This document shows positions 7,530 through 49,652 of a stretch of 64,000 nt of DNA, piece after piece (the first letter of the stretch is position 1; each line of letters begins with the position of its first letter). Below the pieces are notes generated by a model. That model was given only the letters and a program-made list of their open reading frames with translations, searched no databases and was not told where the DNA came from. The translations under genes and the position numbers were made by a program. The stretch lies in NCBI GenBank assembly GCA_023014365.1, contig JAEBUN010000034.1, forward strand, positions 124,001 to 188,000, given 5' to 3'. Origin of the DNA: Lepiota brunneoincarnata (taxonomy: Eukaryota > Basidiomycota > Agaricomycetes > Agaricales > Agaricaceae).

Positions 7530-7570
7530 CACACTCCTCCTGTCCATCACATTTCTGATCCCTTCTAACC

Positions 7571-12784: not shown

Positions 12785-12843
12785 ATCTTCCGCTGACCAC
12801 CCACCACACCAAGAAACAAAAAATATTATTGGACATGTACAAA

Positions 12844-13949: not shown

Positions 13950-13997
13950 GGTGGTAGGAAGTCAAGTTGTGTATTTTCGGACCGAGCCAGTTCACCG

Positions 13998-14007
13998 TTT
14001 TTTATAC
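13998..14007 (-). promoter_or_regulatory. TATA box of the G2 antisense gene
   Basis: GGTATAAAAAAC on the minus strand lies about 50 nt upstream of the ATG at 13949, between the gene and the polypurine tract. It suggests the cargo gene has its own promoter rather than depending on the LTR. Confidence 0.5.
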
Positions 14008-14067
14008 CCTGCCGGAATCTTCCGATGGGCCCCGGCCGAGGCCGCCTTGGGCCTCGAGGCTCGGCCC

Positions 14068-14081
14068 TAAAGGGGGGGCAC
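14068..14081 (+). other. G2 polypurine tract
   Basis: TAAAGGGGGGGCAC immediately before the 3' LTR, the usual place of the plus-strand primer. Confidence 0.7.
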
Positions 14082-14741
14082 TGTCATATCCATGCCAACT
14101 CAGAGTCTAATCACTTAAACTTTGGCTTCTCGATTCCACGTGTGCTCCACACAACAACCCTCTGCCCTCCAACTCGGCCCCGACTTGCTCCGACTGCAAC
14201 CCACTGCCCCAATCACGCGACCACCTCCACATGTGCCGTGGTCACCTGACCCTCGGTGTCTCTAGTTCCAGTCTCCATTTCCCGTCCGTAGTCACGATAC
14301 GTTATCGGTCTCCATACCTGTACCGGTTTCCATTCCATTCGTAATCTGTTCGTAATCCGTTGTAACTATATCGGCCTCCGCTTCGCTCCGCACGTAATCA
14401 GTACGAGTCATAGTTCGTAAGGCCAGTAGTATATATACTGTAGGTACTTGGCTTGTACTCCTCAGTCTGATAATCGATTCGAGCAGCGGACCAGCTCCCT
14501 GTTCTCTATCCTCTCCTCTCTTCTGCCTCGCTCCGCTTTGGCCCCGACTTCCTGAAATACGGACTAGGACAGTAAGAGGGCACAGCACATACGCTGAGGC
14601 CGCAAGTCCAACCCCCCGCCCGACGTACTCCGCCTCGGTCCCGAAGTCTACATACTGACTTCGCCCTGTCCCCCGGTTACCTTATATCAAGGTTACCACC
14701 CCGACCCTCCGCCTCGGTCCCGACCCGCACCGGCTCTAACA
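14082..14741 (+). repeat. G2 3' LTR
   Basis: Same sequence as 6856-7516 apart from eight substitutions and one deleted base. It is followed by the target duplication ACATC at 14742-14746. Confidence 0.95.
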
Positions 14742-26613: not shown

Positions 26614-27752
26614 TGAAAAGGAGGAAACTTTCGTGTGTTTTAATATAGATAAATGGCTTGTTCTCACTAAGCTTAGTCGAAATTTGATAAGCTTAAGTTA
26701 ATACAAGTAGTATTAGATAGATAATGAACAGTTTCATCTTTTAGGGTGTTCTGGGGGTGCGTTCTGACAGCGAAATTCAAGAGAATAGTGTTTTTAGAGG
26801 TTAACAAACAGCCATTGAAGTTATCTTAGCCATACAGTGCAACAATGAAAGGACAATCCCTGTCAATTCAAAGCACGGGGTCTCTAGTCTCTGGTCTCTG
26901 GTCTCTGAACTCTGTTCTCTGTCTCTGTCTCTGTCTCTAGCACTCTGGAACTCTAAACTCTGGACTCTGTTCTCTGTCTCTGTCTCTGGGTTGGTCGACG
27001 ACCGAAGAAATCACACTTAATGATGCACACTAAATAGTCCTCTGAAACCGTTCTTGATCATGGCTTGCAGACTTGTGTGTGGAAGCGGGGGTGAGACCTC
27101 TTGCTTCTCCATGAACAAGCACGACCGTATTTATATTGTTTAGATACATGCGAGAGATAGTAAATATGAAATAGAAAACAATAAGCTTAATTGTTACAGG
27201 TACTGCAGAATATTTTGGAAGGTTTGGCAGCATTTCTACCTTGCCCTGGGTTATGGGTTTTTCTCTGATTGACGAATGGCAATCCAGCCAGACATGTTCC
27301 GTGCTCATCTGCATTATTCTGCGTCCACATGAGCATGTTAAACCTCCAGATCAATTATGATCAGAATGTATGGTGTATGTACAATCCCTTGATCCATTGT
27401 AATTAATTTCAGTCAGGCAGTATGCCAAGGTGCTGGGACCCACAAAGCACTTGTTAATTATGAGTCTTTGATATGTCTAGGGTTTTGGGCATTGGGTGTC
27501 GCCTCCTGAATGTTGGACATTCTGTTCCGTGGTCCAGTCATCATTATTGGGCTTGCTATGGGCATAATACCCCTGCAACAGCTGCTATGTACATTCTTTA
27601 GGTTCCAACAAATCCGAGTTCATCAGAAAACTGCTCGTAAGGTCCCTTGATGCGACTGGAGTATACTTGATAGGCTATGTAAAGTCCAGAATCCCTCCGG
27701 AGAGTGTTCTGATAGCTTGGTTCACTAAGCTTAGTGATAATGAGCTGGTTTG

Positions 27753-28183
27753 TGTAAGGGGACACTCCAAACACCCCAGTAGTACCTCCACCAACCCTAT
27801 CAACACCCCTGGCCCCCCCAATGCATTATATATCCCTCCTTTCAAACGCTTACACTCCTCACTATCCAGATAAAACCCTCCCTCATTCCCTCTCATTTCT
27901 ACAGACCCTAGACTGTCATGTCCACTCCCCACATTCGTTTCAACTACTCTGGATCTTGTGTGACGCCCAGACATCATGGCTAAGCCTGGTCCAATTTATA
28001 TTGATTATATAAGTTAGGTATATACCTAGTTTTCGCCTGCAGGGGTTTCCTCATCCTATTCTCTTAGGATTTCCCTGCAGGTATGTGTCCTGTACATAAC
28101 TCATAGTCTAATATCACTTAGGATTTCCCTGCAGTGTCGCTTCGGCTCCCTGAGTTGCCCAAGCCCCACAGGTCACCCTAACA
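27753..28183 (+). repeat. G4 5' LTR
   Basis: TGTAAGGGG...CCTAACA. TATATAAG at 28006-28013 and a second TATATACC at about 28020. ATCCTATTCT at 28053-28062 pairs with AGAATAGGAT at 28186-28195, two bases after the LTR (10 nt). Confidence 0.95.
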
Positions 28184-28185
28184 GA

Positions 28186-28195
28186 AGAATAGGAT
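28186..28195 (+). other. G4 candidate self-primer binding site
   Basis: AGAATAGGAT is a perfect 10-nt complement of 28053-28062 within the LTR, at the same offset from the LTR end as in G2. Slightly weaker than the 11-12 nt matches of the other families. Confidence 0.55.
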
Positions 28196-28213
28196 CTCCC
28201 AGAGAGACCAGCC

Positions 28214-29521
28214 TTGTGTCCACAGGTCCTACACCATCGAAAAAACACGTTTTCCAATCCCGTAGCAACCTATCACTCAATACTCCTCTCTCCCCCTGTC
28301 CAAGCTTGTCCTCCACTCATGTCACAGCAAAATGCATCAGACAATGGGCCTTCAGACCCTCTGGCTATGATTGCTCAGCTCCAGCAGGACGTGGCAGCTA
28401 TGATGACTAGGCAGGCAGACTCTGAGCTGGCCCTCACTGAGGTGATCCAGTCGATTCAAAACACCCTCCAAGACCTTTCCCAGCACCCAAAAACCCCAAG
28501 CCAACCCGACACGACTCCGCACGTCCCTGACACACCCCCCCCCACTACCCAACACTCTCATTCCTCTAAAGTTAAACCAGCAACTCCACCAGACTTCTCG
28601 GGTGACCGAACACGTGGAAGGGCCTTCCTGAACTCATGCAACACCTACCTGCGACTTTGCCCCACTCATTTCGCTTCAGACCAGCAGAAGATACTCTGGA
28701 CAATGTCGTTCATGAAGGAGGGACGTGCAGCCAAGTGGACGGACCAGATATTTCGGTGGGAGGAGAAAAATCAAGGAGCAGAGAGGTTCTTAGATTGGAA
28801 AGACTTCCAGGGCGAGTTTCATAAGCACTTCTTCCCTGTGGACTCTGAAGCAGCCGCTGTCAATCGCTTGGAGGGTACAGAATACTTCCAGCAGAATAGG
28901 GGTGTCGAGGATTACCTAGACGAATTTCTGGAGCTTATTTCGGATTCCGGGTACCAAGACGACAAAACTATAGTCATCAAATTCCGTCGAGGGCTTCGAC
29001 CGGCAATACAGACTGCTGTAGCCATGATGACAGCCAACCGACCCCCGGACAATGCTCCAGAGGCTTGGTATAAAGCGGTGCAACTCATAGACCAAAACCG
29101 AGCTGCAAACGAAGTCTTTCAAGCCTTAGGGCGGGCGCAAGTGCCTTTGACAAAACCCCCTGTCAACTCCTATCGCCTCCCGTCTTCCCTTGCCACCACT
29201 CCTATCACATCAATGTCAACCCCCCTCCCCCCAATCTGCTCCTTTGCCCACGTCACACCTACTCTGACCAAACCTGTCCCAATGGACATTGACACGACCA
29301 GAAGGACGTTAACGACGCCAGTAGTGTGTTATAGGTGCCACCAACCAGGCCACGTCAAGTCCGAATGCCCCCAGCGTTTTGACGTTCGCTTCTTAGATCT
29401 AGAGGAGAAAGAGGCTCTAATTCAGAAACTGCTGGCGGAGAAGGACACCGTGGAAGCTCAGGTGTCGTCGGAGTACCCGGATAGCAAAGGAGAGGCGGAT
29501 TTTGCCCCAAGCGGTCGGTGA
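28214..29521 (+). CDS. gag: G4 Gag
   Basis: 435 codons as an uninterrupted frame; the first Met with a typical Gag start is probably at about 28319 (MSQQNASDNGPSDPL). It has a predicted N-terminal coiled region, a capsid domain of the retrotransposon-gag type (SGDRTRGRAFLNSCNTYL, YLDEFLELISDSGYQDD) and a CX2CX4HX4C nucleocapsid knuckle (CYRCHQPGHVKSEC) near residue 375. It forms the particle that packages element RNA in the cytoplasm. Intact, unlike the other gag genes here. Confidence 0.85.
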   Translation: MCPQVLHHRKNTFSNPVATYHSILLSPPVQACPPLMSQQNASDNGPSDPLAMIAQLQQDVAAMMTRQADSELALTEVIQSIQNTLQDLSQHPKTPSQPDTTPHVPDTPPPTTQHSHSSKVKPATPPDFSGDRTRGRAFLNSCNTYLRLCPTHFASDQQKILWTMSFMKEGRAAKWTDQIFRWEEKNQGAERFLDWKDFQGEFHKHFFPVDSEAAAVNRLEGTEYFQQNRGVEDYLDEFLELISDSGYQDDKTIVIKFRRGLRPAIQTAVAMMTANRPPDNAPEAWYKAVQLIDQNRAANEVFQALGRAQVPLTKPPVNSYRLPSSLATTPITSMSTPLPPICSFAHVTPTLTKPVPMDIDTTRRTLTTPVVCYRCHQPGHVKSECPQRFDVRFLDLEEKEALIQKLLAEKDTVEAQVSSEYPDSKGEADFAPSGR

Positions 29522-32500
29522 ACAGTATGCCCCGGCTGCCTACAGGGAGTAGGTACAGTGTATTATCCATAGACCCAATAAACGACACTGTCCTTGCCCA
29601 AAACTCCATCCCTGTACCAGACATACCCTCTCCAAACCCCTCACTACCTAAACAACCGAGACGGCCGAAATGGGAGCGACGTCTACCCTCTGTATTCAAA
29701 ATATCCTCTACGGAGTCTCGGCGATCGCTTCATCTGACTGTGGAGCTAGAAACAACGGATACGGCAGAGAGGAAGGTAACTCAGGCCCTCTTAGACAGTG
29801 GGGCAACCGGCTGCTTCGTTGATCGTGATTTCGTACAGAGGAATCGCCTCAATACTCGCCCTCTCTCCCAGCCCATTCCGGTTTTCAACGTCGATGGCAC
29901 CAAGAATGAAGCAGGCTCGATTACCGAGGTTTTAGACATTACTCTCCGTTATAAGTCCCACTCGGAACGCACCACCCTTGCCGTCATGTCACTCGGGAAG
30001 CAAGACTTACTGTTGGGTTTTTCATGGCTGAAAGAGCATAACCCGGAGGTGAACTGGCAGACGGGCGAAGTCCGGATGACTCGTTGCCCGGACAGGTGTT
30101 GCACACTGTGTAAGGAACAACGGAGAACTGGGCAGAAAGTCCGGAAAGCCGAAATCCGAGCGATCTCCGCCTGCTCAGAAGGCTCCCACCCACTTTGGAG
30201 CGAAGACTGGGAGGATATCCAAGAGATTCCGGGCCTCCAACTGAAATCCGAACAAGGGACGGTAGACGGCGAACGCATCTGGGCCACCGTTCTCCGTCCG
30301 GACCCTCAGCTCATCCGAGCGACCGGTACTACCTCTCAGAGGCTTGCGGAGGCCTTCCATCACAACTCACAACCATCCCGGACGTCCCTTAAAACCTCCA
30401 GTCCCCACGGTCTCATCCCCAAACATCTCCGAGACTTCTCCTCCGTCTTCGAGAAAGAGTCCTTCGACTCCCTTCTGGAACAAAGGGCTTGGGACCACGC
30501 CATTGAACTCACCCCCAGAGCGACGCCTGTGGGCTGTAAAGTATACCCCCTAGCCCCCTCCAAGCAGTCTGAACTTGATTCCTTCATTCAGGAGAACTTA
30601 GCCACCAGAAGGATTCGCGCATCGAAATCCCCCATGGCTTCTCCAGTGTTCTTTATCAAGAAGAAAGACGGTTCGCTCCGGCTAGTCCAAGACTACCGCG
30701 CCCTTAATGCGATCACAGTGAAGAATAAATACCCACTTCCGCTCATTTCGGAACTTGTTAATCAGCTCCAGGGTGCCAGATACTTCACCAAACTGGACAT
30801 TTGCTGGGGTTTCAACAACGTACGGATTAAACCCAGAGATGAGTGGAAGGCAGCCTTCCGTACTAACCGGGGCCTTTTCGAGCCTCTAGTAATGTTCTTC
30901 GGACTTACCAACAGCCCCGCCACCTTCCAAATGATGATGAACGACATTTTCCGAGATCTTATCGCCGAAGGGGTCGTCGTGGTGTACCTAGATGACATTC
31001 TTGTCTTTACAAAGACTGTAGAGGAACATAGAGAGGTCACCCGCCGAGTTTTGGAAATACTCCATCACCATAAGCTTTACCTCCGGCCGGAGAAATGCGA
31101 GTTTGAGAAGACTAAAGTGGAGTACCTAGGGCTTGTCATCTTGGAGGATAAGGTGGAAATGGACCCAGTGAAAGTCGCCAGAGTGCAGGAGTGGCCAGAG
31201 CCTACCAACAAACGAGAAGTCCAGGCATTCCTGGGCTTCGTAAACTTCTATAGACGATTTGTCCCGGACTTTTCACACCATGCTCGCCCCCTGTTCAACC
31301 TCACTAAGTCAGATGCTCCTTGGCAGTGGGGAGAGCCAGAACGTGATGCCTTCATTACCCTCAAGGAATTAATCACATCGGCACCCGTTCTCGCTTCGCC
31401 GGACACCTCCTTACCCTTCTGGGTTGAGGCGGATAGTTCTGATTTCGCCACCAGAGCGGTGCTCTCCCAGCAGTCGAAGGAAGGCAAATGGCACCCGGTG
31501 GCCTTCTACTCTAAGTCTCTGGACCCGGCGCAACGAAACTACAAAATCCATGACAAAGAGATGCTGGCTATCATTCGAGCACTTGAGGAGTGGCGACATT
31601 TCTTAGAAGGAGCTCCTCATACTGTGGAAATCTGGTCAGATCACCGCAATCTAGAGTACTTCATGACGGCTAAGAAGCTCAATCGTCGCCAAGCCCACTG
31701 GTCCCTTATTCTAGCTCGTTTCGACTTCGGACTCCACCACAGACCGGGTAAATCAATGGGGAAGGCCGACGCGTTATCTCGGCGTGCAGACCATGGCTCC
31801 GGAGCCAGTGATAATGAAGACATTGTCCTTTTGACCAGAGAGAAGTTCGCCATCCGTGCTCTGGAGGGGATTCAAGTTACAGGGGAAGAACAAACCCTCT
31901 TACGAGACATACAAGCAGGAAACCGCGCTGGAATTGCAGAAGAAGCAGTCGCAAAATCGGCTCGTGAGCTTAAAGAGTCCTCCTCCAAGATGGTACGCTC
32001 CTCCGAGTGGTCGAAGATGGATGGGTTGCTCCTGTTCCAAGGTAAGATCTACGTCCTGGACAGCGATGACCTCCGGCGCTGTATTGTAGCCCTCTACCAT
32101 GACTCCCCAATCGGGGGACACGCGGGTCGCTGGAAAACACTTGAATTAGTCTCTTGTAACTATTGGTGGCCACAGATGTCTCGTTTCATCGGCCAATACG
32201 TCGCCACATGCGACCTGTGTCTCAGAACAAAGCCTCATCGCCACCTCCCCACCAGGGAACTCCACCCCCTACCCATTCCTGAATCCCGGTGGGATACTAT
32301 AAGTGTTGACTTCATCGTAGAGCTCCCTCCTTCTGCCGGGTACGACGCCGTAATGACTGTGGTCGACTCAGCCTCCAAGCAAGCCCACTTCATCCCCACA
32401 TACACCACCGTGACAGCAGAAGGAGCCGCCCGACTGTTCCTACACAACGTATGGAAACTACACGGACTCCCCAAACAGGTAGTATCGGACAGAGGGCCTC

Positions 32501-33429
32501 AGTTTGTTGCAGAGTTCACTAAGGAACTCTACCGGAAATTGGGAATCAAAGTAGCGAGCACAACCGTGTGGCACCCCCAGGCAGATGGTCAAACTGAGAG
32601 GGTTAATCAAGAGTTAGACCAATACCTTCGGATCTTCATCAACGAGAGGCAAGACGACTGGCTAGACCTCCTCCCACTAGCCGAGTTTCAGCACAATAAT
32701 CATATCCACTCCTCGACTCAACACTCCCCCTTCCTTCTCGACACTGGCAGACATCCCCGGATGGGTTTCGAACCCCATCAATGACCCTCTTGCTTGGAAA
32801 CAGTCAATGAGTTCACTGATCGGATGAAAGCAACAATGGAGGAGGCTAAAGCGGCGTTGGTACGGTCCAAAGACAAAATGGCGAGGTACTACAACCAGCG
32901 CCGCACCCCAGCACCTGTCTTTAAACCGGGAGATTGAGTTTACTTAGACGCGAGCGATATTCATACCACTTGACCATCCAAGAAATTATCCCACCTCAGA
33001 CTCGGCCCCTATGCAGTAGAACGACGAGTGGGTGCTAGTGCCTATCGCCTGAAACTCCCCCAGTCTATGCAACGCCTCCACCCAGTATTCAACATTGTGA
33101 AGCTCTCCCCCGTGCCAGAGGACCCATTTCCAACCCAGCAGCCACCCCCACCACCAGATCCCGTAGTTATTGACAATGAAAAGGAATGGGAGGTAGAAGA
33201 GATCCTAGACAGCCAATTTGTATGACGAAAGCTCAAATTTTTGGTCAAGTGGAAAGGCTTTGGTCGTGAACACAATTCTTGGGAAAACTCGGCCAACGTA
33301 CACGCTCCCAGACTCGTTAAGAAATTCTACGAACAACACCCTGGGGCCCCACGCTTCATACGAGCCCTCCAGTTCGGTTCCATCCCATTCCAACCATTCC
33401 CAACCATCACGTCGAGTCGCCATGATCCT
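29518..33429 (+). pseudogene. pol: G4 Pol: protease, RT, RNase H, integrase, chromodomain
   Basis: Open from about 29518 to a TGA at 32782, in the -1 frame relative to gag. Protease ALLDSGATGCF near 29790; RT with [17 protein letters not shown] and YLDDILVF near 30985; RNase H (VEADSSDFATRAVLS, DKEMLAIIRALEE, WSDHRNLEYF); integrase zinc region ending CDLC near 32215, catalytic SVDFIVELP, VSDRGPQF, DGQTERVNQE. After 32782 the frame continues with four TGA codons (former CGA or TGG) to a chromodomain (EWEVEEILDSQFV, LVKWKGFGREHNSWE). Enzymatic core intact, C-terminus broken. Confidence 0.9.
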
Positions 33430-33443
33430 GAAGGGGGGGTGGA

Positions 33444-33873
33444 TGTAAGGGGACACTCCAAACACCCCAGTAGTACCTCCACCAACCCTATCGACACCCC
33501 TGGCCCCCCCAATGCATTATATATCCCTCCTTTCAAACGCTTACACTCCTCACTATCCAGATAAAACCCTCCCTCATTCCCTCTCATTTCTACAGACCCT
33601 AGACTGTCATGTCCACTCCCCACATTCGTTTCAACTACTCTGGATCTTGTGTGACACCCAGACATCATGCTAAGCCTGGTCCAATTTATATTGATTATAT
33701 AAGTTAGGTATATACCTAGTTTTCGCCTGCAGGGGTTTCCTCATCCTATTCTCTTAGGATTTCCCTGCAGGTATGTGTCCTGTACATAACTCATAGTCTA
33801 ATATCACTTAGGATTTCCCTGCAGTGTCGCTTCGGCTCCCTGAGTTGCCCGAGCCCCACAGGTCACCCTAACA
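33444..33873 (+). repeat. G4 3' LTR
   Basis: Matches 27753-28183 with three CpG transitions and one missing base. A polypurine tract AAGGGGGGGTGGA precedes it at 33431-33443. Confidence 0.95.
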
Positions 33874-34039
33874 GTTTGAACACTTCTGAGGCTCAAATAT
33901 CCTCAGTTCGGTCGAACTGGCTACTACAGGACATAGTACCAATCCTCTATAGGGTTCTTTAATGATATAGCCAATGATTCTATGTAGAGAATCGTTCTGG
34001 AGTATGGAATTCATGTATAGGCGTGAAATTGGCATATCA

Positions 34040-34052
34040 TCTCCCCCTAACC
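34040..34052 (-). other. G3 polypurine tract
   Basis: GGTTAGGGGGAGA on the minus strand, directly before the 3' LTR start TGATATGCC. This fixes the 3' boundary of G3 and places the two plus-strand genes inside it. The stretch 34053-34367 is upstream sequence of gene A with no ORF; it has one TAAGCTTA at 34165. Confidence 0.65.
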
Positions 34053-34367
34053 AATTGCTGACTGTCCTCAGTCATTATCTCCTTCAAATTTGCAGTATCT
34101 GAGTCTCTCTGATATGCTCTATGTTCTAGAACGTTCACCAGCTTCGAGAGTAGCATACTTTTGCTAAGCTTATTCCAAGATGATGTCATGTCACCAAGTT
34201 TAAATGTATAGATCAACTTCTTGTTGCTATAGCCTAAATTTTTATCTTGTTATTGGGTCTTTTTAAAAGTCCCAAGGTCTCATTTCCTCTCTTTTGTTCT
34301 CCTTCTCACTTCTCACTCATCTATTTTCATCTCAACTTCCAGTCTTCTATGCCTGCCCACAGCAACA

Positions 34368-36401
34368 ATGGACAGAAACATGCACAGCAACAAGAGAGCT
34401 TGTCATGATGAAGATTCAGATTTTTCCTCTAGTAAGCAATGTTCACTTTACTGTTGTCCTTGTCTTGCTAACACTGTCTTCAGACTATACTGAGCCAAGG
34501 AGCGCCCTTATGGCTCCAGGAAACGCATCTTCTCCTTCAATCGCACAACATAAGTCGCATTTTTCCCCCGTTCTTGTTGTCATCACTCATGTTTTTCTCT
34601 GCTTTTAGGTCTCACTATTCACCTACCAGCATGTCGCAACCTCCTGCCTCAATGGGAACCACCAGCACTGCGTACTAGGAGGGCTAGAGGAGGGCGAGGA
34701 GCTCAAGGAGCTTGCAGAAATTGTCAGGTAGGTGTGGCAAGGACTCCTCCTCCACCATACTCTCTGCCCCGCAAACCAACTCCTCCGCCGGCCTCTCCCT
34801 TGGCCGCTCCAGTGCCAAGACATGTGATTTCCATCACGTCATTGTGCAATCCAACCGACGAGCACTCTGCTGGATTTTCCACAGAACCCTCATCAGGTAT
34901 CCCCGTTGGTGGGCCCTCTGGTGGATTATCCACAGAGGCTTCGTCCAGTTCAATGTTGCTGCCCCCTCTTGCTGTCTCTCTGCACACCCTGGACGAGGAA
35001 GACTCGCTGGTGCTCCCTCCCCTGGGTATTGCATCAGGTTCGGAGGTGCCAGGCCCTTCAACAAACCGGCCTTCTTCCCCTGTACTCTCTTCTGCTACTT
35101 CAATGCATAAGCTTAGTTGTTTTTCATGATATATTTGTTCTTTCCACTGACTTCTGCTTTAAGCGCGTATACCAGCTGCCTTTAAAGGCAAACAGAGGGC
35201 AAAATCATCGATGCCACCCCCTCTCCCCTTATTCCTGGCAGGTTCTAACTTGTCATCATGTTCTCTGGTCCCTGAGGTCTCTCAAGCCAACCTCTTTAAA
35301 ATCTTTAGTTGGTCCTCTTCTCTGGATGGGCAACATGTGCTGGCTTTGCCTAGGTGCCCAACACCATCACCACCTCACTTAGCTGGCGCTCCAGTCGAGT
35401 CTCCCACAAGCGCCATGGAGATTTCTCCTTCTCCAGATTTGGAGCTCCTTCTGGAGCCTTTGCCTGCCCCTCAAGAACTGACTTTTGTTTTTCAAGACGT
35501 GTTCTTAGCTTCTCCGACCCCCGTCCTTTCTCGTTTGCCTAGCCCGGTGGTTCCGGAGATCCCTCAAGAGTCCCCTCATGCTGGCCCGTCGCATCAACAA
35601 TGTGTCCTTTTGACCAAGAAGAGTTCCAACACACAGATGAAGAAATACGTTCCCCGAGTTCACGTTCAATGCTCTGAGGCCACCATTATTTGGGACCATG
35701 GATACCGCCACCCAGTCCCACTCTTTTGTGAGGACTTTCCTAGGCTGCTGGCAGCTAGCCAGCTTTCAGTACATTCTCCAAGTTTTTTTTGTGTTTCCTT
35801 ACTGAAGGTTTTGACATCCACCCCAGTACGTGCCACCTCAGTCTCGGTGTCCTTCCTGCGCTGCTTGTAAGTTGGAGTGCAAGCTTGTGGGCAAGGGTAA
35901 GAAGTATCACAGCTGCAACCTCTATAATTACCCCTGCACCTTCACAGACCATCCGCGAGTCTTGGCTGGCGTTGTGAACGCCCTAGTCATGTCTTCACTG
36001 ACCAGTGAATACCATAAGTTTCTTTGTTCACTATTTTTCTCCTTTCTTATTCTCTTTATTTTCTAGATCTGGCCACTTTTGCATGTGTTGTGTCCTCCAG
36101 CTTGGTCAGCCTGGAGGCAAACCACGTCGCTTACGAGGCTTCGGCGTTTCACCACCATTGGGTGGTTTATCAGTTTGGCCAGGAAATGCAAGCTACCCGG
36201 ACAGCCTTGGAAGGTAACAACGTGGCGTTTGTTGAGATGGGGATGGCCAACTCCATTAAAGACGTCGAGGCGTTCTTTGAGTTCGCCAACAACTTTCTGG
36301 GAGTCCTGACATACAAAGAATTCGAGGAGCTCAAATCACTTCTCTTCCTCGCTTTCCTGATGACTCAGGATCCGGAGTCTATCTTGGAGGACTTAAACTA
36401 G
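34368..36401 (+). CDS. G3 cargo gene A, antisense, multi-exon, Cys-cluster protein
   Basis: Likely start ATG 34368 (MDRNMHSNKRACHDEDSDFSS), then a 52-nt intron (34432-34483, GTAAGC...TTCAG) and a 55-nt intron (34554-34608). After a basic segment (RTRRARGGRGAQGACRNCQ) comes a long Pro/Ser-rich region (to about 35110), an intron ending near 35162, another Pro-rich exon (to about 35780), a cluster of six cysteines (RCPSCAACKLECKLVGKGKK, then HSC and NYPC) and a C-terminal helical exon (ALEGNNVAFVEMGMANSIKD ... ESILEDLN). One base appears out of frame near 34676. The cluster resembles, but does not fit, the Zn(II)2Cys6 consensus. Exon borders are my reading and partly uncertain. It lies tail-to-head before gene B and opposite to G3 gag-pol. 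A nucleic-acid-binding role is plausible; function unknown. Confidence 0.5.
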
Positions 36402-37050
36402 CCGCTCCCCTTTTATACCTTTATCTCTTGAATGTAACATCCTATTTTGTCCTGTAGATACATTCATAATTAAAGATTCTTGTCTCTTGGTATCCTTCTG
36501 AGTTAAGCTTGAGGCCTTTCTGAAGACCCTGAGCTAAGCTAAGGCTTCCAGCCACTTATACGCTCATTAGATATTTCTCTGACACTTCTGCGATGCCTAT
36601 TGCCCCTCAACATGCCGTGATCCGCAACATGTAGCGACCCAGCTCATCTGCTCCGGTTTACTTACAAGCCCGAACCAGCCTGTCCATGATGTTCGAAAAA
36701 GCTCTTCACAAAAAAGCTCACGTCAAACTGTCAAACTGAAGCGCCCCTTGGGACCCATCTCCCCCTAGCCAAATTGAAATCAGTGCCCTCACCGTTCCAT
36801 CAGAATCCCTGTGCACACTGATAACTGTGAGACCCTGGTGACATGTTACCTAATAAGGCAACTGTGGTTCAGCAAGTCTGTCGAAGGCTGGCTACTCAAG
36901 ATTACAGGTTTCCTAGGCCTCTCAGGTCATAAGCTTAGGGTGGAGGGTGCTCTTCATCCACTCGTTATGATTCGTCATCACTGCCTATAGCCTTTTCTTA
37001 TAAAAGTGAGGGAGTGATGCCTCATTCTAGCAGACACCCTTCACAAGAAA
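36402..37050 (+). promoter_or_regulatory. Intergenic region A-B with TATA box of gene B
   Basis: About 650 bp without a supported ORF. TATAAAAG at 36999-37006 lies 45 nt before the ATG of gene B. Contains one TAAGCTTA at 36930. Confidence 0.5.
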
Positions 37051-40000: not shown

Positions 40001-40123
40001 ATTGATGCTATTCCCTTGCTCGAAGCCAACTTAAAGAGGTTCCAATTCCTCATTCAAGAGCGCATCCATCTCAAAAGCCTTTTGCACAACCTTTCCAACT
40101 TGGACAAGTCCTTCCCTGCTTAA
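37051..40123 (+). CDS. G3 cargo gene B, antisense, multi-exon, split by two solo LTRs
   Basis: Exon 1 37051-37191 (MASSIPHLQVELDDLISNAK, CLQCLQNGQVAC), intron 50 nt, exon 2 37242-37529 (96 codons), intron 37530-37580 (51 nt), then exons interrupted by a G3-family solo LTR (37843-39142) and a G1-type solo LTR (39540-39956). Removing each LTR with one copy of its duplication restores reading: DAW|SVKCNLNSLSWDF across the second. The last exon ends KSFPA with TAA at 40121, inside a TAAGCTTA motif and about 80 nt from the end of G3 pol on the other strand. A slipped frame near 37700 and uncertain borders near 39190 and 39480 remain. N-terminal CX2CX7C and a basic patch (RKRR, AKRARTEF) suggest a nuclear protein; I recognise no family. 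Confidence 0.6.
37843..39142 (-). repeat. Solo LTR of the G3 family in gene B
   Basis: 1300 bp, TGAAAAGGTAG...GTGTATCA, flanked by CCGA on the left and CTGA on the right (a 4 bp duplication with one CpG transition). Carries four TAAGCTTA. Confidence 0.85.
39540..39956 (+). repeat. Solo LTR of the G1 family in gene B
   Basis: 417 bp, TGTTATC...GGTAACA, flanked by the perfect 5 bp duplication CTTGG (39535-39539, 39957-39961). Closest to the LTR at 25036. Confidence 0.9.
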
Positions 40124-40199
40124 GCTTAACGCTTTTACAGTCCCCAGGATAGTTTTCCTTCAATAAATAGATAGTTCTGTCCACAATATCAGGTTTTTT

Positions 40200-41684
40200 C
40201 TATCCCTCCAACTTTTCTGGCTCCCATCTGTCACTAGGCTCATCCTCAGTAGTCTCCTCCAGGGTCTTCAGTCCCTCTGGCGACAGATCTAACAACTCTT
40301 GTAACTCCAGCGGCAACGGCATATGTTTTCTGGCTAAGTAGGGAATTACTCTGAACACCGCCACTTTATTCTGCCATACAGAGCCATCCAACTCTGCCAG
40401 GATATATGATCCTCCCTTTGATCTAGATATGACCACCATGGGTCCTAGATACCTGGGTTTCATCTTCCTGTCTGCTGAGCTCTCTATAGCTGTGTTTTTC
40501 ACTAATACTAAATCTCCTGGGCCGAAGCGATAATCTTTTATCTTATGCGCTGCTTGTCATTCCATCTCCCAAGCCTTGCTAAGCTTAGTGTCTGAAACAT
40601 GCTGACGCACCTCCTCAACATGCCGAACATGTTTTGCCAAAGCCTGAGCTCGGTATCCTATCAACTTGGCCGTGGTTAAGTACTTATTTGGTAGTTGTAC
40701 TAGCCAAGTGGCCTCTTTGACATCCAGAGGTAGCATCAGGTGTGCTCCGGTTACCAGAAAGTACGGGGAACACCCCATTCCTTTTCTAATGGTTATCCGA
40801 TCTGCCCACATAACATGCGGTAGGTGCCAATACCACTTTTTGACATCTCCATCTGTAGCTTTGTACAACATTTGCCACACATCCCAGTGGGCTCTTTCAA
40901 TAATCCCATTCACTTTGGAATTGTAAGGAGATATCATTACTCCTTTTATCCCATATTTTTCTTCCAGCCATCAAACAGCTTTCTTAAATGGAGAACTGTT
41001 GTCCGTGACAATCTTCACTATACAGCCCCATTGGCAAATGATATCTTCAAATAACCACTGCGCAATTGAACTAGCATTCTCTTTTCTCAAAGCTTTTGCC
41101 TCCATCCAGGATGACAGTCCACACCTTCCATGCACAATGTAGCTACACCCATTAGAACTTGGTGTTATATGTAGCATGTCCACATGTAGCACTTGGAATA
41201 TCGATGGCGTGGGCGTTACTATTGGCAGCATCTCAATGATTGCCTTTTGCCGTTGCTGGCATAGATGGCATGATTGCACATACCAAGCTACATCTCCTTC
41301 AACTTCCAGCCACCAGAACCTCTGCATTATAAGCTTAGTGGTTGTGTATGTTCCTCTGTGTCCTAGGAAGTTGTGGCTGGCTTGCAACATATACATATGC
41401 TGCTCCTTATCCACTACTAGCTGATGTTGACCGCTAGGACTCGTCCTATACAGTCTCCCCTCTTCATCCAAGAAGAAATGCTCCACCATATACTTAAGCT
41501 TACACAGATCCAGCTCATCCAAGCCTTCAGCTGCACTACTGCCCCCTGTTTTCAGGAATTCCCTGACTTTGGGTATTCTTCTGTCTTGTATTTGCACTGT
41601 ATCTGTCCTACGCGATTCATCATATGCTTCCTCTATCTCGGTCAACTTTTCCTCTTCGAAATCTGGCACTAGCCTGACATCCGT
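40200..41684 (-). pseudogene. pol: G3 integrase
   Basis: Zinc-binding part HNFLGHRGTYTTTKLIMQ ... CHLCQQRQK at about 41370-41240; catalytic residues in LHVDMLHITP, IVTDNSSPF and NSKVNGIIERAH (DDE); C-terminal GPY/F-like domain ([20 protein letters not shown]) ending at 40200. No chromodomain is seen, unlike G1, G2, G4 and X. Frame interruptions near 40960 (TGA) and 40540 (TGA). A solo LTR separates it from RNase H. Confidence 0.85.
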
Positions 41685-42985
41685 TGAAAAGGTAGAAACT
41701 TTTGTAGGCTTTAATATAGATAGTGGGCTTGTTTTCACTAAGCTTAGCCGCAATTCGATAAGCTTAAGCTAATACAAGTGGAATGAGATAGATAATGAAC
41801 AGTTTTGTCTTTTAGGGTGTTCTCGGGGTGCGTTCTGACAGCAAAATTCAAGAGAATAGTGTTTTTAGAGGTTAACGAACAGCTGTTGAAGTTATCTTAG
41901 CCGTATGGTGCAACAATGAAAGGACAATCCCTGTCAATTCAAAGCACAGGGTCTCTGGTCTCTGGTCTCTGGTCTCTGAACTCTGGTCTCTGTCTCTGTC
42001 TCTGTCTCTAGCACTCTGGAACTCTAAACTCTGAACTCTGGTCTCTGTCTCTGTCTCTGGGTTGGTTGACGACCGAAGAAATCACACTTAACGATGCACA
42101 CTAAATAGCCCTCTGAAACCGTTCTTGATCACGGCTTGCAGACTTGCGTGTGGAAGTGGGGGTGAGACCCCTTGCTTCTCCACAAACAAGTGCGACCGTA
42201 TTTATATTGTTTAGATACATATGAGAGATAGTAAATATGAAATAGAAAACAATAAGCTTAATTGTTATAGGCACTGTAGAACATTTTGGAAGGTTTGGCA
42301 GCATTTCTACCTCACCCTGGGTTATGGGCTTTTCTCTGATTAATGAATGGCAATCCAGCCAGATGTGTTCCATGCTCATCTGCATTATTCTGTGTCCACA
42401 CGAGCGTGTTAAGTTTCCAGATCAATTATGATCAGAATGTATAGCAGATGGACAATCCCTTGATCCGTTGTAATTAATCTCAGTTAAGCAGTATGCCAAA
42501 GTGCCGGGACCCACAAAGCACTCATTAATTAGGAGTCTTTGATATTTCTAGGGTTTTGGGCATCGGGTATTGCCTCCCGAACATTGGATGTTCCGTTCCA
42601 TGGTCCAGTCATCATTATTGAACTTGCTATAGATGTAATATGCCTGCAACAGCCGCTAGGTACATTCTTTTATGTTCAAACGCATTCGGGTTCATCAGAA
42701 AACTGCTCGTAAGGTCCCTTGATGCGACTGGGGTATACTTGATAGGCTATGTAGAGTCCTGAATCCCTCCGGAGAGCATTCTGATAGCTTGGTTCACTAA
42801 GCTTAGTGATAATAAACTGGTTTGAACATGTCCAAGGCTCGAGTATCCTCAATTCAGTCAAACTGGCTACTATGGGATATAGTACCAATCCTCTATAGAG
42901 TTCTTTAATGATATAGCCAATGATTCTATGTAGAGAATCATTCCGGAGTACGGAATTCATGTATAGGCGTGAAATCGGCATATCA
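41685..42985 (-). repeat. Solo LTR of the G3 family inside G3 pol
   Basis: TGAAAAGGTAG...CATATCA flanked by the perfect 4 bp duplication CCGT (41681-41684, 42986-42989). A case of self-insertion. Four TAAGCTTA octamers. Confidence 0.9.
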
Positions 42986-45120
42986 CCGTCATTAAGCTTA
43001 GTACTTGTCAGTGGTTTTCTGGGCATGCTGGGTCTTCTATAGCCCTAAGCTTAGCCTGTTGTTCATCCAAGTACTCTTCCCAAGCTTGATCCAGCTCATA
43101 CTCGAAATCATACACATCACACGCCAGACTCTGGCTGAAGCCAGAGCGACTGTCAATCTCATCACAGAAGGCTTCCAAGGGTAATGGATCTGCAGCCCCC
43201 AGATCTTCTTTGATCAACTTGAACTCCTCTCCCTCGTCCTCGGATCCATCATCGAACCGACGGGCTGTCTCATCACCAGGATAGTAATGTCATCTGGACA
43301 GTCCATCCGGCCCAAATGTCTTCCCTTCTTTGTGTACTAGTGTGAAGTGGAACAATCTAATGAAGTCCACCCAACGGTTTACAGTAGCGTTCAGGAGTTT
43401 TCCTGGGTTGTTTAACATCCCAAAGAGAAACTTCGTGTCTGTTTCCACTACTAGATTTCTCGATCCCCACAATAAATATTTCTCCTGTTCCAGCACCATT
43501 CTTAAGCCACATAGCTCTTGCTTGGGCTGAGAATACCTCTGCTGTCTCTTGTCCAATAATATTGACCCAAACTTCGCATAATGTATAAGCTTAGCATCTT
43601 CAACATCTCTCTGATATATATAGTATCCCACCACCCTCCATGAGGTATCCACAGCTACTACTATGGGTTGTTTACTCAGGAATTCGGGGTTCCTGGTCAG
43701 GAAACAGCTCTGAATTGCATCTTTCAGCTCCTACTGCGCTTTCCATTTGTTTTCTCCCCATTCAAACTCTTGTCCCTTCTTAAGCTTTTTGTATAGAGGT
43801 GCAGCAATGGCTATGAACTTTGGGATATGATTCCTGCAGCGCATAGCTGTTCCTAGAAAACCCCTTAGCTCTGAGACATTCTCACAATCCCCCTATCTTA
43901 AAATTTTTCCAATGGTGTCTGTGGCGGGCAACCATCCCTCATAGGAGCATTCAAAACCCACTATGGTGATTTCATCAGCGCAGATAGTCATTTTGGGCCC
44001 AGAGAAGGTTCCCCCCATGTATTTCATCCTCTGTAGAATCCTATTGACCGTCTGCATGTGTTCCCATACAAATCGTCGGATCCCTAAGTTCTTTTTCAAC
44101 GTTTCTTCAGTGCCATCTAGCAACTCATATCTGGTTTTCGGTCCCCTGATAGGTACATCATCTATGTACGGCATCATGTATTCTGGTATCTCACTGGCTA
44201 GGATCACTGTTACATCCTCATGAAATATAGGCACTGAATTGGTCCATCCCATAGGTAGCGTCACTAAGCGTAGCGCTCCAAAAGGCATCTGGAATGTTGT
44301 TAAGTCCCAAGATGACTCAGCTAACAATCGCTCATCATATCCAACATACAGATCCAGGATGCCTCCACAAGCCCTGCCTGCAAAGTGCATTGCCAAATCT
44401 TCTGTTGCTGGCGGCAGCCCTGAATGCACTATTGTTACTCTGTTCAGCGGTTCCAAGCTGTGTACCAGTCTCAAACTTTTTCCATCTTTCTTTACCACAC
44501 AGAACCATCTGGATCTATAGGATGAGTTTGACGGCTTGTATACACCAGCACTAATCTTTCTTTTTATAATGGCACAGACTTCATCATAGATTGCTGGTGG
44601 AATCGGAATGGGCTTTTCAACCCACAGAGTATGTTCTACCATCGGTATCTCAATTGGTGGGAAGAAATCTTCCCTAAAACATCCCTTTTCCTCATCTGTC
44701 CAGGCAAATGCCTTTTCTTGAAGCATCATGATGTGGTGCATCAGCTTTCTTTCCTCTGGCCACAAGAAATCCCCTGCATGGGCTTTGTCCAGCTTAAGCT
44801 TACGCTCCTCAGTATATCTCCCTGTTGGGACAAACTCTGGAGGATGCATGCTAAGCTCAGGCATTTCTGCCAGCAGGTCCCCTTTTATTTCTCGTTTTAT
44901 CCTGAATCTCTCCAGTAGATCACCCAACACTGGCCTCACTTTTAAGGCTACTGGTTTATATTTCTTCCCAGCCAGGCATTGTACTGTATCTTCACCATCT
45001 TCTTCTGTTTTGAAGACAGTTATTCCCTGGTCCTCTGTGCCCTGCGCATTGGCTATGCGTCCTAGGCACAATAACACTGTCGCTTTATCTTCTTGTGGAC
45101 AGTCCTCATCGCGTATGACT
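42986..45120 (-). pseudogene. pol: G3 reverse transcriptase and RNase H
   Basis: Divergent Ty3 RT: KKDGKSLRLVHSLEPLNRV, GGILDLYVGYDERLL, LPMGWTNSVPIFHEDV and catalytic YIDDVPI near 44160 in place of YLDD. RNase H follows at about 43650-43290 (QPKQELCGL, VVETDTKFLFGML, GPDGLSR), then an acidic linker (DEIDSRSGFSQSL, ELDQAWEEYLDEQ). Breaks: TGA near 45118, stops near 43890 and 43730, TGA at about 43290. It belongs to a Ty3 lineage distinct from the other four families here. Confidence 0.85.
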
Positions 45121-46015
45121 CAGTCAATGAACATTAGCTGTAGCTCAGCCTCTGAGAAGCTTCCTTTCACTAAGCTTAGTGTTTGTGCGACGACAGGGCC
45201 CTTCTCATCATCATAGTCTATTATACAAGCCACCTCTCCTTGTCCCTTAGTCAACTCATCAAGGTTTCTTAAAAATTTTGACTGTTTTCTCTAAGCTTAA
45301 GAGGATTACACTCTCCTCGAGCATAAGTTGGCAACACAGCCCTTTCTCTGGTATTTGGGTCCGTAATAACCAAGGTTTGCTTGCCACTGGCGCTATTCCT
45401 GACTTTGCTAGCAGTCATTACATCAAACGGTCATCCCAGCAGTACTCGATACGCGGGGTTGCAAACTATGTGAACTTGCAAATAGATTGTGACTCCCCTG
45501 CAGGTAAAGCCTACATTCTTTGCCAACCCACAAGTCTTTTCAACCTGCCCATTTGCACTCTGCAAATTAATTGTAGTGTCTGGGTCCCAAGAAACTTGAC
45601 ATGCAATCGCCGCTTCCTGACTCATAGATATGATCTGTGACCCACTATCTAGCAAGGCTTCTTCCTGCCGAATCCCATTTATCAGAGTCAGAACTACTCT
45701 CAACGGTTCGCATTCTTTAGCAATAAACACTTGCCGTCCCCTGTCTCTTCTGGGAAGTGACTCCAAGTACTGCATGATTGGATCCTGAGCTACCCAGGCT
45801 TGCGTTGCTGAGCCTTCTCAGAGCACTGTATCATACTTCCGAGAGCCGTCTGCCAACTCTGTTATCATAACCTGTACCAGCCCACTATTAATTTCCATAT
45901 CTTCTGTATCATCTTCCAAGGACCCAACTCCTGCTATTAAGCTTTGATTTGTGGGTACCCATTTTCTCATAATTCGCTCTCTATAAGTGTTCCTGTATAA
46001 AGGTGACAATGCCAA
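45121..46015 (-). pseudogene. pol: G3 protease region
   Basis: EEALLDSGSQIISMSQEAA at about 45670-45610 is the aspartic protease active site (DSG). Upstream are gag-pol linker pieces (MALSPLYRNTYRERIMRKW). Interrupted by TGA codons near 45817 and 45435. Confidence 0.75.
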
Positions 46016-46042
46016 GAGTTCTCCATGTGATACTGAGGCTTC

Positions 46043-47952
46043 TCACTTCAATACCCTGCTGAGTACTTCCTCAACATTGACATTCCTCTCTATAGGGGCC
46101 TGGTGCTTATACGCAGGCTCCTTCTTGGATGATTCCATCCTTCTGACAGGCAGCGGTGGTACCTCAACGACTGGGTGCAGTGGTTTCACATTCCTATATG
46201 GTAATTCCCCTGCTACTGCATGCGGTGGTTTCTCCGTTGTCTGCCCTATTTCCTCATTTTCTGATTCTTCTGATCGCTCGGAATCTGACACGTCCTCAGG
46301 AGTCTGTCCTCTGGCAAAGGCGACCTTCTTCTTCAGAGCTGGCTCCTTCCTTGAACCCTTTAGAAACCTGACTCCAAGTTCCAAGTCTTCACGCCACTCC
46401 TGGTGTCCAAATACTGGCTTGCTGAGGGCGTACCATCCGTCAAACCACTAAGCTTAGCCTGTATCTGGGCTAATTGCTTGGCCAAAGACTGTATCTTGAC
46501 ATTATCATCCTTTCTGGTCATAAGCTTAACCTTTGGGGCACTCCCAGCATGGATGGCAGCTGTTTCCAACATCTCCATGCACTGCTTCAGATGGCGGATT
46601 TCTTCTTCCGCTGGCAACCTTTGGTTTTCTGACCTTGGGAACGCTTTCTGTGTAAACACTGCTGCCGCTGGCACTTGCGGTAACTCAGGCTCAACCTCTG
46701 GCAGTTCTGGTACCTGAATGAAGAGTTGTCCCTTTGTCGCATAGTACTTCACTACTTTCTCTTTAATTGGCCCTTCCCCTCGAGGGATACTCGAGCTGTC
46801 TCCCATATATATTTTGTTCCCTTCGACTCTAATTTGGCCAGCTTGTTTATCCACCTCCATGTCTGGGCAGAATAACCAACTATGCCCCAATAACCAACAG
46901 TAGAAACACTTGCGATCGGAAAGTGACCCTGCTGGCCCACTTCCGGTATTCCTCTGAGCGTGATTATAGCCAGCATGATTATGTCTGTCCTTCGCCAAAC
47001 TCTCTAAGTATGATTTTAAAGTATGCCCCTGGATATTCATGAGGTCCTTAAGCTCAGCGAGATGGCCTGCCATTTGTGAGACTTCATCCTGAAACTTCTG
47101 CTTTAAGCTTTGCAGCTTTCGCTTTACTACAGGGTCATAAGTCCCTGTTCCGGACGTTGCAGGTGGATGGCTCATCGATGCCAAGTTCACCGGCCTTGAA
47201 TCCTGATGAAGGGATTGCATAAGTGTTTTGCCAATCGAAATTTCGACGGCTTTATCCACAACGATCCTCCAATCATAGGGGTCCTCTTCGCGTAAATCCT
47301 TCGCAGTTAGTGCCAACCCATTGCTCGCGGTTCTACACACCCCAGTGATTGCTAATCTTGCATTGAGTACATCCTGGAACACGGAGTCCAGTGCGCTCAT
47401 AAATAACTCGACTAGCTCTCAGTTCGAGACTACCGCCAGCGACTTCAGGCACTTTTCTGCTTCTAGAATGAATCACCTTTTGAAGTCCACGACTCTATGC
47501 TCCTCATTCATTGCAATGCCTCTACTCTCTGTGCAGAGTTCCCTCAATTGTTGCACTGAGCCCTGCTCAGCTGCCACAGTCTCGGGATACTCTTTCTTCA
47601 ATCTCTCTACAAAGCCTGTCCAGCTTCCTGCTGGGAACTCCGCAAAACTCATCCACTCTTCACGGATATCCTGGTCCACAGATGACACTGCCCAATTTAT
47701 TCTTTCTGCATCGTCCGTCGTCTTTGTTATTGTGAAGAGCCATTCAAGCATCCAGAGATAATTTCTCAATGTCTGTGGTTTTGATGCATCCCATCTGGGA
47801 GCATTATTGCTAAAGGGAATTGGCATTTGCTTGTGTCCCATTTTACTAGCTGTAGTCATTGTAGATGGCGTAGTTTGGTTTGTCTGTACAGTCAGAGTTG
47901 ACTGTGATATCTGTGGTACCATAGAGGCACCAGGAGGGTTCGTATGAAACAA
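46043..47952 (-). pseudogene. gag: G3 gag
   Basis: Starts at about 47952 (MFHTNPPGASMVPQISQSTL). Capsid-like segment RWDASKPQTLRNYLWMLEWL ... QDIREEWMSFAEFPAGSW; TGA near 47473; second part with coiled region (LKQKFQDEVSQMAGHLAELK) and knuckle CFYCWLLGHSWLFC (CX2CX4HX4C) near 46900; C-terminal Glu-rich part. Five TAAGCTTA-type or AAGCTT sites fall within the coding sequence, several encoding the dipeptide Lys-Leu (for example QAKLSGL). Confidence 0.8.
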
Positions 47953-48385
47953 GTTTTGGTTTGTAAATGCTAAGCTTAGCGTAGGAACGGTCTGACCGTC
48001 CTGGCTTTCAGTGTGCAGAATATGTGCTATGTTGCCAGCTGAGGCTGGAAGCCTTATAGTAATTCTGGGAGCAGTAGAGATTGGTGGTGCGACTTCTCTT
48101 GATACTGCAACTGCTAAACCGCTTGCTGTGCTCGCAGTTATAGAACTAGTAGGATCTTTTCACTTTTGAGAGGTACTAGCGGTGATGAGGCCTTCAGAAC
48201 CTTCTGGACGATTGGAATTCCAAGTAGTTCTCTGTTTTGGGGGGTCAACCTTCCTGAGACTGCTCTCGAAGGACGTTTTGGGTGACTTTACGGTCTTTGC
48301 TTGAACCTTTTTCTGCTTTGCAGGTGAAAGGCAGGCCAGTGTCCAAGTCTTTTGGTGTTTGTCTCGTGAAAATTCAACTGAAAAC
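47953..48385 (-). other. G3 leader between primer site and gag
   Basis: About 430 bp without a supported long ORF. Contains TAAGCTTA at 47971. Confidence 0.5.
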
Positions 48386-48405
48386 CCCCCTCGTGGTGGG
48401 CTCCA
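48386..48405 (-). other. G3 tRNA-type primer binding site
   Basis: Minus strand: two bases after the LTR, TGGAGCCCACCACGAGGG, the form expected for pairing with a tRNA 3' end ...GTGGGCTCCA. The 3' end of fungal tRNA-Lys (GGGCTCCA) is the closest I know. No complement to it is seen in the LTR. Confidence 0.55.
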
Positions 48406-48407
48406 GA

Positions 48408-49652
48408 TGAAAAGGAGGAAACTTTCGTGTGTTTTAATATAGATAAATGGCTTGTTCTCACTAAGCTTAGTCGAAATTTGATAAGCTTAAGTTAATACAA
48501 GTAGTATTAGATAGATAATGAACAGTTACGTCTTTTAGGGTGTTCTGGGGGTGCGTTCTGACAGCAAAATTCAAGAGAATAGTGTTTTTAGAGGTTAATG
48601 AACAGCCGTTGAAGTTATCTTAGCTGTACGGTGCAACAATGAAAGGACAATCCCTGTCAATTCAAAGCGCGGGGTCTCTAGTCTCTGGTCTCTGGTCTCT
48701 GAACTCTGTTCTCTGTCTCTGTCTCTGGGTTGGTCGACGACTGAAGAAATCACACTTAACGACACACACTAAATAGTCCTCTGAAACCATTCTTGATCAT
48801 GGCTCGCAGACTTGTGTGTGGAAGCAGGGGTGAGACCTCTTGCTTCTCCATGAACAAGCACGACCGTATTTATATTGTTTAGATACATGCGAGAGATAGT
48901 AAATATGAAATAGAAAACAATAAGCTTAATTGTTACAGGTACTGCAGAATATTTTGGAAGGTTTGGCAGCATTTCTACCTTGCCCTGGGTTATGGGTTTT
49001 TCTCTGATTGACGAATGGCAATCCAGCCAGACATGTTCTGTGCTCATCTGCATTATTCTGCGTCCACATGAGCATGTTAAACCTCCAGATCAATTATGAT
49101 CAGAATGTATGGCATATGTACAATCCCTTGATCCATTGTAATTAATCTCAGTCAGGCAGTATGCCAAGGTGCCGGGACCCACAAAGCACTTGTTAATTAT
49201 GAGTCTTTGATATTTCTAGGGTTTTGGGCATCGGGTGTCGCCTCCCAAATGTTGGACGTTCCGTTCCGTGGTCCGGTCATCATTATTGGGCTTGCTATGG
49301 GCGTAATACCCCTGCAACAGCCACTATGTACATTCTTTAGGTTCCAACAAATCCGAGTTCATCAGAAAACTGCTCGTAAGGTCCCTTGATGTGACTGGAG
49401 TATACTTGATAGGCTATGGAAAGTCTGGAATCCCTCCAGAGAGTGTTCTGATAGCTTGGTTCACTAAGCTTAGTGATAATGAGCTGGTTTGAACACTTCC
49501 AAGGCTCAAATATCCTCAGTTTGGTCAAACTGGCTACTATGGAACATAGTACCAATCCTCTATAGGGTTCTTTAATGATATAGCCAATGATTCTATGTAG
49601 AGAATTGTTCCAGAGTATGGAATTCATGTATAGGCATGAAATTGGCATATCA
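48408..49652 (-). repeat. G3 5' LTR
   Basis: 1245 bp, TGATATGCC...CCTTTTCA on the minus strand; TATAAATA near 48865. It lacks about 55 bp of the CTCTGGT microsatellite present in the 3' LTR. Four TAAGCTTA octamers. Confidence 0.85.

Follow-up and report, generated by a model that had tools for sequence, protein, structure and literature searches.

We describe here a 64,000-nucleotide stretch of the Lepiota brunneoincarnata genome (contig JAEBUN010000034.1, positions 124,001 to 188,000; hereafter the window) and a palindromic octamer, TAAGCTTA, that is dispersed over one of its mobile elements. This element, G3, is a Ty3-type long terminal repeat (LTR) retrotransposon on the minus strand, in which LTRs with TG...CA ends flank gag and then protease, reverse transcriptase (RT), RNase H and integrase. 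Two cargo genes, A and B, run antisense to gag-pol (Table 1). The four LTR copies are most simply explained as the two ends of one element (a and d, a pair for which no target duplication was seen) and two internal solo LTRs (b and c), and a nested Ty3 element splits LTR a. B is interrupted both by solo LTR b and by a dispersed repeat at 39540-39956, which recurs at 25036-25451 (pieces 92-96% identical). The window copy of G3 is decayed and its pol frame is broken; long frames are open in other copies, L040 for instance having a pol of 1126 aa. Relatives of the G3 RT number 1145 and those of the L040 integrase 756, the named ones among the integrase matches listed coming from agarics (e.g. Cyclocybe, Armillaria, Candolleomyces, Mycena and Moniliophthora). 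A scan of IMG/VR with the G3 RT gave no match.

By exact count, TAAGCTTA occurs 35 times in the window and always within G3: 19 sites lie in the interior (11,767 b) and 16 in the LTRs, four in each copy. None was found in the nested element (6,122 b) or in the remaining 40,961 b of the window. An earlier note on this DNA had reported the same interior and LTR counts, 29 interior occurrences of AAGCTT and the absence of the octamer outside G3, and all of this holds; in the window as a whole there are 54 AAGCTT and 13 CTAAGCTTAG. The note's remark that sites fall about every 600 bp describes merely an average, because their spacing is no more even than random (coefficient of variation 0.86, P 0.33). 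An order-1 model predicts about 0.2 occurrences per 10 kb (loci L038 and L039). Across the 55.6 Mb genome TAAGCTTA is found 5370 times against 842 for the reversed word, and CTAAGCTTAG 2011 times against 39 for its reversed pattern. Gag-pol holds 12 of the 19 interior sites, and a site at 42993 lies just outside the protease-RT-RNase H region, adjoining solo LTR c. The other seven are in the cargo region, where they occupy varied positions: upstream of A (34165), in the A-B intergenic region (36930), at an intron's 5' splice site in A (35108), at the two ends of a B intron of about 50 bases that begins and ends with the motif (37531 and 37572), in a putative further B intron (39423), and at 40121, where the motif supplies the B stop codon.

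It is almost certain, in our view, that TAAGCTTA is under selection as a property of the G3 family. In 5000 synonymous-codon shuffles of the window copy, gag-pol yielded 0.18 occurrences on average and never more than 3, against the 11 observed (twelve segments were shuffled, and the one at 45120-45430, in which the frame is disturbed, holds 2 of the 11). The earlier note had tied its idea to enrichment in other G3 copies; this enrichment is present in the copies retrieved, and the idea stands on that point. When the twelve sites of copy L016 were followed through 26 copies wherever their flanks aligned (L005-L030, L016 itself included; L031-L034, being partial or diverged, were left out), 287 of 291 site copies were intact. 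Control octamers were taken from L016 such that none of their bases belongs to a CG, CA or TG dinucleotide; these were intact in 3031 of 3751 cases (0.81; 153 octamers, after 18 of 171 with fewer than 19 aligned copies had been dropped), and none of 20,000 draws of 12 controls matched the mean intactness of TAAGCTTA. The cargo copies fall into two groups by G+C content, window-like copies L006-L014 at 0.448-0.465 and L015-L024 at 0.494-0.501; the lower values look like C-to-T decay.

The motif is also kept at a cost to protein sequence. In the RT it encodes the Leu of ERKLKLD at a position that is acidic in most relatives listed (Glu 69, Asp 27, Ala 10, Gln 4, Lys 4, Leu 1 and others among 120 listed of the 1145). 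Across three integrase sites, 5 of the 12 motif-coded residues agree with 8% or less of the listed relatives (0.08, 0.05, 0.02, 0.02 and 0.01), the other seven agreeing with 0.27 to 0.98 against a domain mean of 0.54. Comparison of the window copy with L040 (91% identical) shows that 11 of 12 gag-pol positions are kept, as is the one at the B stop codon. A pair of positions separated by 57 bp differs between the two copies: the window carries TAAGCTTA at the first of these, the RT site, and L040 carries it at the other and reads CAAGCTTA at the RT site. The more diverged cargo of L039 (80% identical) has lost none of the five cargo sites and carries one more.

Cargo gene A offers a candidate reader. 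In other copies its cluster reads C-x2-C-x6-C-x8-C-x2-C-x6-C, which is an exact Zn2Cys6 (GAL4-type) spacing; the consensus is C-x2-C-x6-C-x5-12-C-x2-C-x6-8-C. The fourth Cys is Tyr in the window copy, and all six are present in 32 of 34 A clusters retrieved with a pattern that required at least four. The cluster is kept in a 47%-identical paralogue at loci without an evident pol open reading frame (ORF), and an A exon has 146 matches in the genome (its antisense orientation to pol was checked in the retrieved loci). With PF00172, A scores 10-12 bits and does not reach the gathering score of 21, which is why we call it, and the E2 protein introduced below, Zn2Cys6-type and claim no family membership. 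A sequence search with the A exon against solved structures returned two matches, both GAL4 (E 0.97 and 2.2). The four structure matches listed for a low-confidence model of the isolated domain are all Zn2Cys6 proteins (PPR1, GAL4, HAP1 and Pho7), and all are weak. Foldseek with a 195-residue model of A gave three matches at E 7 or worse, none of them a zinc cluster; profile searches of solved structures with A1 and A2 found no zinc cluster either, and no protein relative of A was present among 4054 candidates. Cysteine spacing and the low-confidence models show, at the level of prediction, a Zn2Cys6-type cluster in A, a signature of DNA binding. No VANC-type family came up when A and the first three exons of B were scanned with Pfam. 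An A-like zinc-cluster gene occurs in a stretch of about 2.4 kb, 98.7% identical between two loci (L035, 4635-6999; L037, 4170-6534), amid repeated ORFs that look hydrophobic by eye and without an evident pol ORF; it is possibly a source or a descendant of cargo A. AATATT, seen 11 times in 10 kb of L035, was considered as a motif there and dropped since it stems partly from internal repeats.

A sister Ty3 family, retrieved by searching with an RT of 69% identity (P0020), separates the cargo from the octamer. Its open pol (1260 aa) matches that of L040 at 63% identity across 606 aa and at 74% across 511 aa, and the residue at the RT site is Glu (ERKE). A B-like gene lies antisense downstream of its integrase. 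Further copies of this family are at C17:777415, C74:29791, C26:528886, C9:1071811 and C33:173743. Locus L042 (C1:685000-692500, 7.5 kb) contains two AAGCTT and a single TAAGCTTA, which sits within a 16-base palindrome, CTGCTAAGCTTAGCAG. In the 2.6 kb of L044 (C17:783400-786000), from another copy, stretches resembling A and B are present and TAAGCTTA is absent. No significant substitute palindrome emerged from 10.1 kb of sister DNA; GTTACCTA (five occurrences) and TTANNTAA (eleven) fail once the number of words tested is allowed for, and L043, at first taken for a sister cargo locus, belongs to a different Ty3 family, into which a G3 LTR is inserted. Because the sister family has A-like and B-like genes without enrichment of TAAGCTTA, the antisense cargo is older than the octamer or independent of it.

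The window holds a second, unrelated element of similar design, which the earlier note did not mention. A scan for palindromic dyads brought up CGGNNCCG (CGGN2CCG) in the first 24 kb, and 25 of the 29 sites in the window fall within the 7.9 kb of E2, a Ty3 element whose LTRs (6856-7516 and 14082-14741) are 98.6% identical and which has a target duplication, ACATC, on both sides. Three of the remaining sites are near 62.5-63.0 kb, with flanks the same or nearly the same as those of E2 LTR sites, and one is at 2440. G3 and the nested element contain no CGGNNCCG, and E2 contains no TAAGCTTA. The excess is specific to the two-base spacing (25 occurrences, against at most 8 for any other spacing from N0 to N15). 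It exceeds both 300 dinucleotide shuffles of E2 (mean 3.27, maximum 11) and, for the 13 sites in gag-pol, 3000 synonymous shuffles (mean 1.66, maximum 8). A composite, CCGNNTCGGNCCCG, occurs 603 + 510 times genome-wide against 15 + 17 for its reverse. The pol of L045 shares 5 of 6 sites with that of E2, at an identity (93%) too close for a test of site conservation.

E2 also carries an antisense gene, and its cluster, CWRCQRDEVRCEIAGGNTRSCRRCSKMKKRC, has after manual splicing a second exact Zn2Cys6 spacing (C-x2-C-x6-C-x9-C-x2-C-x6-C). It is followed by a charged stretch that looks helical or coiled-coil-like by eye, and the window copy has a TGA near the 5' end of the gene. The protein scores 8-12 bits with PF00172, again short of the gathering score of 21. 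Against solved structures it matched zinc-cluster proteins (6e33, Pho7 6o19 and PPR1 1pyi; E 0.4-1) and also two DNA glycosylases (E 0.65 and 1.5). An exon of the E2 gene has 150 genome matches, 53-100% identical (150 scored of 192 candidates; orientation to pol was again checked in the retrieved loci), and E2-type subfamilies stand at 54-75% identity among them. A search of the window for half-clusters listed five matches, namely A, both E2 halves and two on the plus strand (47851 and 53129), the last two with no second half in the surrounding sequence shown. Inverted CGG half-sites such as those of CGGNNCCG are an arrangement typical of Zn2Cys6 sites. The nested Ty3 element, which has about 660 b from pol stop to 3' LTR with a longest frame of 94 aa and no cargo, has neither palindrome. 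The pairing of CGGNNCCG with an antisense Zn2Cys6-type gene would parallel that of TAAGCTTA with A, and lends the latter support by analogy.

Table 1. Features of G3, the nested element and E2 in window coordinates
Feature	Position	Strand	Basis or remarks
G3 5' LTR (LTR d)	48408..49652	-	repeat and LTR alignment; 4 TAAGCTTA
G3 gag region	46360..48159	-	ORFs; TAAGCTTA at 47971, 46521, 46449
G3 protease-RT-RNase H region	43008..46447	-	ORFs, RT relatives; TAAGCTTA at 45292, 45171, 44795, 43586, 43046
Solo G3 LTR c	41685..42985		LTR alignment; 4 TAAGCTTA; flanked on either side by CCGT
G3 integrase (H2C2 zinc-binding domain)	40200..41684	-	Pfam PF17921; TAAGCTTA at 41495, 41330, 40580
Cargo gene B	37051..40123	+ (antisense to gag-pol)	sequence; first three exons read in copy L016
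Solo G3 LTR b	37843..39142		LTR alignment; 4 TAAGCTTA
Cargo gene A, six exons	34368..36401	+ (antisense to gag-pol)	sequence; spliced reading of copy L016 gives 584 aa
Zn2Cys6-type cluster of A (predicted)	35848..35937	+	cysteine pattern, models
G3 3' LTR (LTR a), remainder past nested element	33875..34039	-	repeat and LTR alignment
Nested Ty3 element, no cargo genes	27753..33874 (6,122 b)	+	splits LTR a; internal control
G3 3' LTR (LTR a), first part	26614..27752	-	repeat and LTR alignment; 4 TAAGCTTA
Ty3 element E2	6856..14741	+	gag, protease, RT, RNase H, integrase, chromodomain; 25 dispersed CGGNNCCG
E2 antisense gene	12844..13949	-	between integrase and 3' LTR; cluster CWRCQRDEVRCEIAGGNTRSCRRCSKMKKRC

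Elsewhere in the window, tandem repeats of 32 bases, some of whose copies are decaying, form an array at 24495-24750, and two sets of longer tandem-like repeats, with steps mostly of 177 and 144, lie at 21178-23044.

We propose, with a probability of roughly 0.5, that TAAGCTTA serves G3 as a self-tag, a cis motif spread over the whole element and maintained by selection, and that its reader is the element's own antisense protein A, which would keep G3 copies accessible or active. The earlier note had seen in the octamer the target of an element-encoded protein, perhaps A or B. That reading gains from the selection on the motif in G3, from its near-absence in the sister family and from the Zn2Cys6-type signature of A, and recognition by one or other of the two proteins is probable. 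The benefit it had suggested (anti-silencing, packaging or targeting) is less settled, as nothing in the present evidence can choose among the three; we put forward anti-silencing as a tentative proposal, at less than even odds. In such a scheme the antisense genes would make zinc-cluster proteins that re-enter the nucleus, where A, presumably as a dimer and in trans, would bind the palindrome throughout every G3 copy, whether in LTR, intron or coding sequence. Bound copies would then stay accessible or active by anti-silencing, activation or both, for instance by resisting heterochromatin. That sites occur in bodies, introns and LTRs alike suggests that the effect extends over the entire element and goes beyond activating a promoter. 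Binding, dimerisation and outcome are all steps that we infer. Two observations are the main difficulties for this proposal: genes resembling A and B are present in the sister family, in which no motif was found, and TAAGCTTA is not a classical CGG-type site, a CGG triplet being usual in the sites of zinc clusters.

A host DNA-binding factor, and not A, might instead read TAAGCTTA, the sites having been gathered as enhancers or chromatin openers; in favour of this are the lack of a CGG in the octamer, the A-like gene of the sister family without the motif, and the four sites per LTR. A promoter, however, has no need of sites across the bodies of gag-pol and the cargo genes. Moreover, G3 and E2, unrelated to each other, both combine an antisense gene of zinc-cluster type with a private palindrome, while the cargo-free nested element has neither, and on balance we consider a host reader unlikely. 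A reader within the element might instead be B, or A and B jointly, the cluster of A having some other task. B is likewise antisense cargo with a relative in the sister family, it has a basic patch (PYRKRRLS), and the present data do not favour A over B for binding. On the other hand, a Pfam scan of the first three B exons found no recognised DNA-binding domain, and in E2 a zinc-cluster-type gene accompanies a motif and no B-like gene was noticed, no dedicated search having been made. This assignment strikes us as rather improbable.

We would give still less weight to a role in RNA or integration, in which the palindrome serves dimerisation, packaging or as a landmark for insertion into the element's own copies. 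In its favour, either RNA strand would show the same palindrome, G3 itself contains two solo LTRs of its own family, and LTR c ends (42985) 7 bases before the TAAGCTTA at 42993; against a landmark, LTR b is not close to any site (the nearest is 37572), and the LTRs in L003 and L004 adjoin non-G3 repeats. Least credible of all, and already contradicted, is that the octamer reflects RIP (repeat-induced point mutation)-like decay of CAAGCTTG to TAAGCTTA or the needs of splice sites (GTAAG/TTAG). Three sites do stand at splice borders (35108, 37531 and 37572), and a word without CG, CA or TG would for that reason decay slowly. Yet the control octamers, equally free of these dinucleotides, were intact in 0.81 only, and the G+C-richest copies (L015-L024) have 12 sites each where the AT-richer L006-L014 have 7 to 12. 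Most interior sites are in gag-pol, with 16 more in LTRs; the nested element has no site and the sister locus one.

Taken beyond G3, the self-tag proposal becomes a more general one, which we regard as quite possible though short of even odds: that fungal Ty3 families each encode, antisense to pol, a GAL4-type protein with a palindrome of its own that is dispersed over LTRs, introns and coding DNA, that this one protein recognises and protects all copies of the family, and that such is the function of at least some antisense ORFs of the aORF-3R class (see below). On this view G3 with TAAGCTTA and E2 with CGGNNCCG would be two examples, and gene and motif would evolve together while families split. 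If so, LTR retrotransposons would have reached VANC-like self-recognition independently, under selection strong enough to alter an RT residue that is acidic in most relatives listed. Among the papers listed in our searches, judged from titles and the opening of abstracts, none pairs an antisense gene of zinc-cluster type with a self-motif dispersed over the element; no paper was listed for TAAGCTTA as a word or for an LTR retrotransposon with an antisense ORF in a basidiomycete.

Several known systems resemble these pairs in part. VANDAL elements are DNA transposons of plants. In Arabidopsis their anti-silencing VANC proteins recognise short motifs repeated over their own copies, related elements using different motifs (PMC5735166), and element-encoded recognition of a short self-motif, demonstrated for VANC, is what we propose for G3. 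VANC21 recognises YAGTATTAY, binds more strongly in non-coding regions, and VANC targets are often tandem repeats (PMC5735166). The G3 sites differ in being palindromic and dispersed, with 12 of 19 interior sites in gag-pol. G3 and E2 are, besides, fungal LTR retrotransposons with antisense zinc-cluster-type genes and not members of the VANDAL group, and binding is in their case inferred. Mobile elements with a gene that could undo host silencing are also known in fungi, in the form of DNA transposons encoding TET/JBP dioxygenases (PMC12730594). Theirs is an enzyme acting on methylcytosine, and no dispersed recognition motif is described in the opening of the abstract (PMC12730594). The GAL4/PPR1-type Zn2Cys6 factors share with A and the E2 protein the cysteine spacing, with A its weak fold matches and with E2 the inverted CGG half-sites. 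They differ in that the A and E2 genes lie antisense inside retrotransposons and fall below the Pfam cut-off, and in that TAAGCTTA lacks CGG. A genetic counterpart is the aORF-3R class, antisense ORFs between pol and the 3' LTR in plant and fungal retrotransposons such as Grande, RIRE2, Retand, PvRetro13 and Boty of Botrytis; their function was not known according to a 2020 review, and their proteins have no clear database similarity, an SMC domain being named in PvRetro13 (PMC7264820). A, B and the E2 gene share the place, antisense orientation and many copies by which that class is recognised (PMC7264820). A and the E2 gene depart from it in showing a Zn2Cys6 cysteine pattern and in accompanying a dispersed motif. 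Two antisense genes of aORF-3R type with a recognisable DNA-binding signature, each in an element with a private dispersed palindrome, make the question of what such genes do a testable one.

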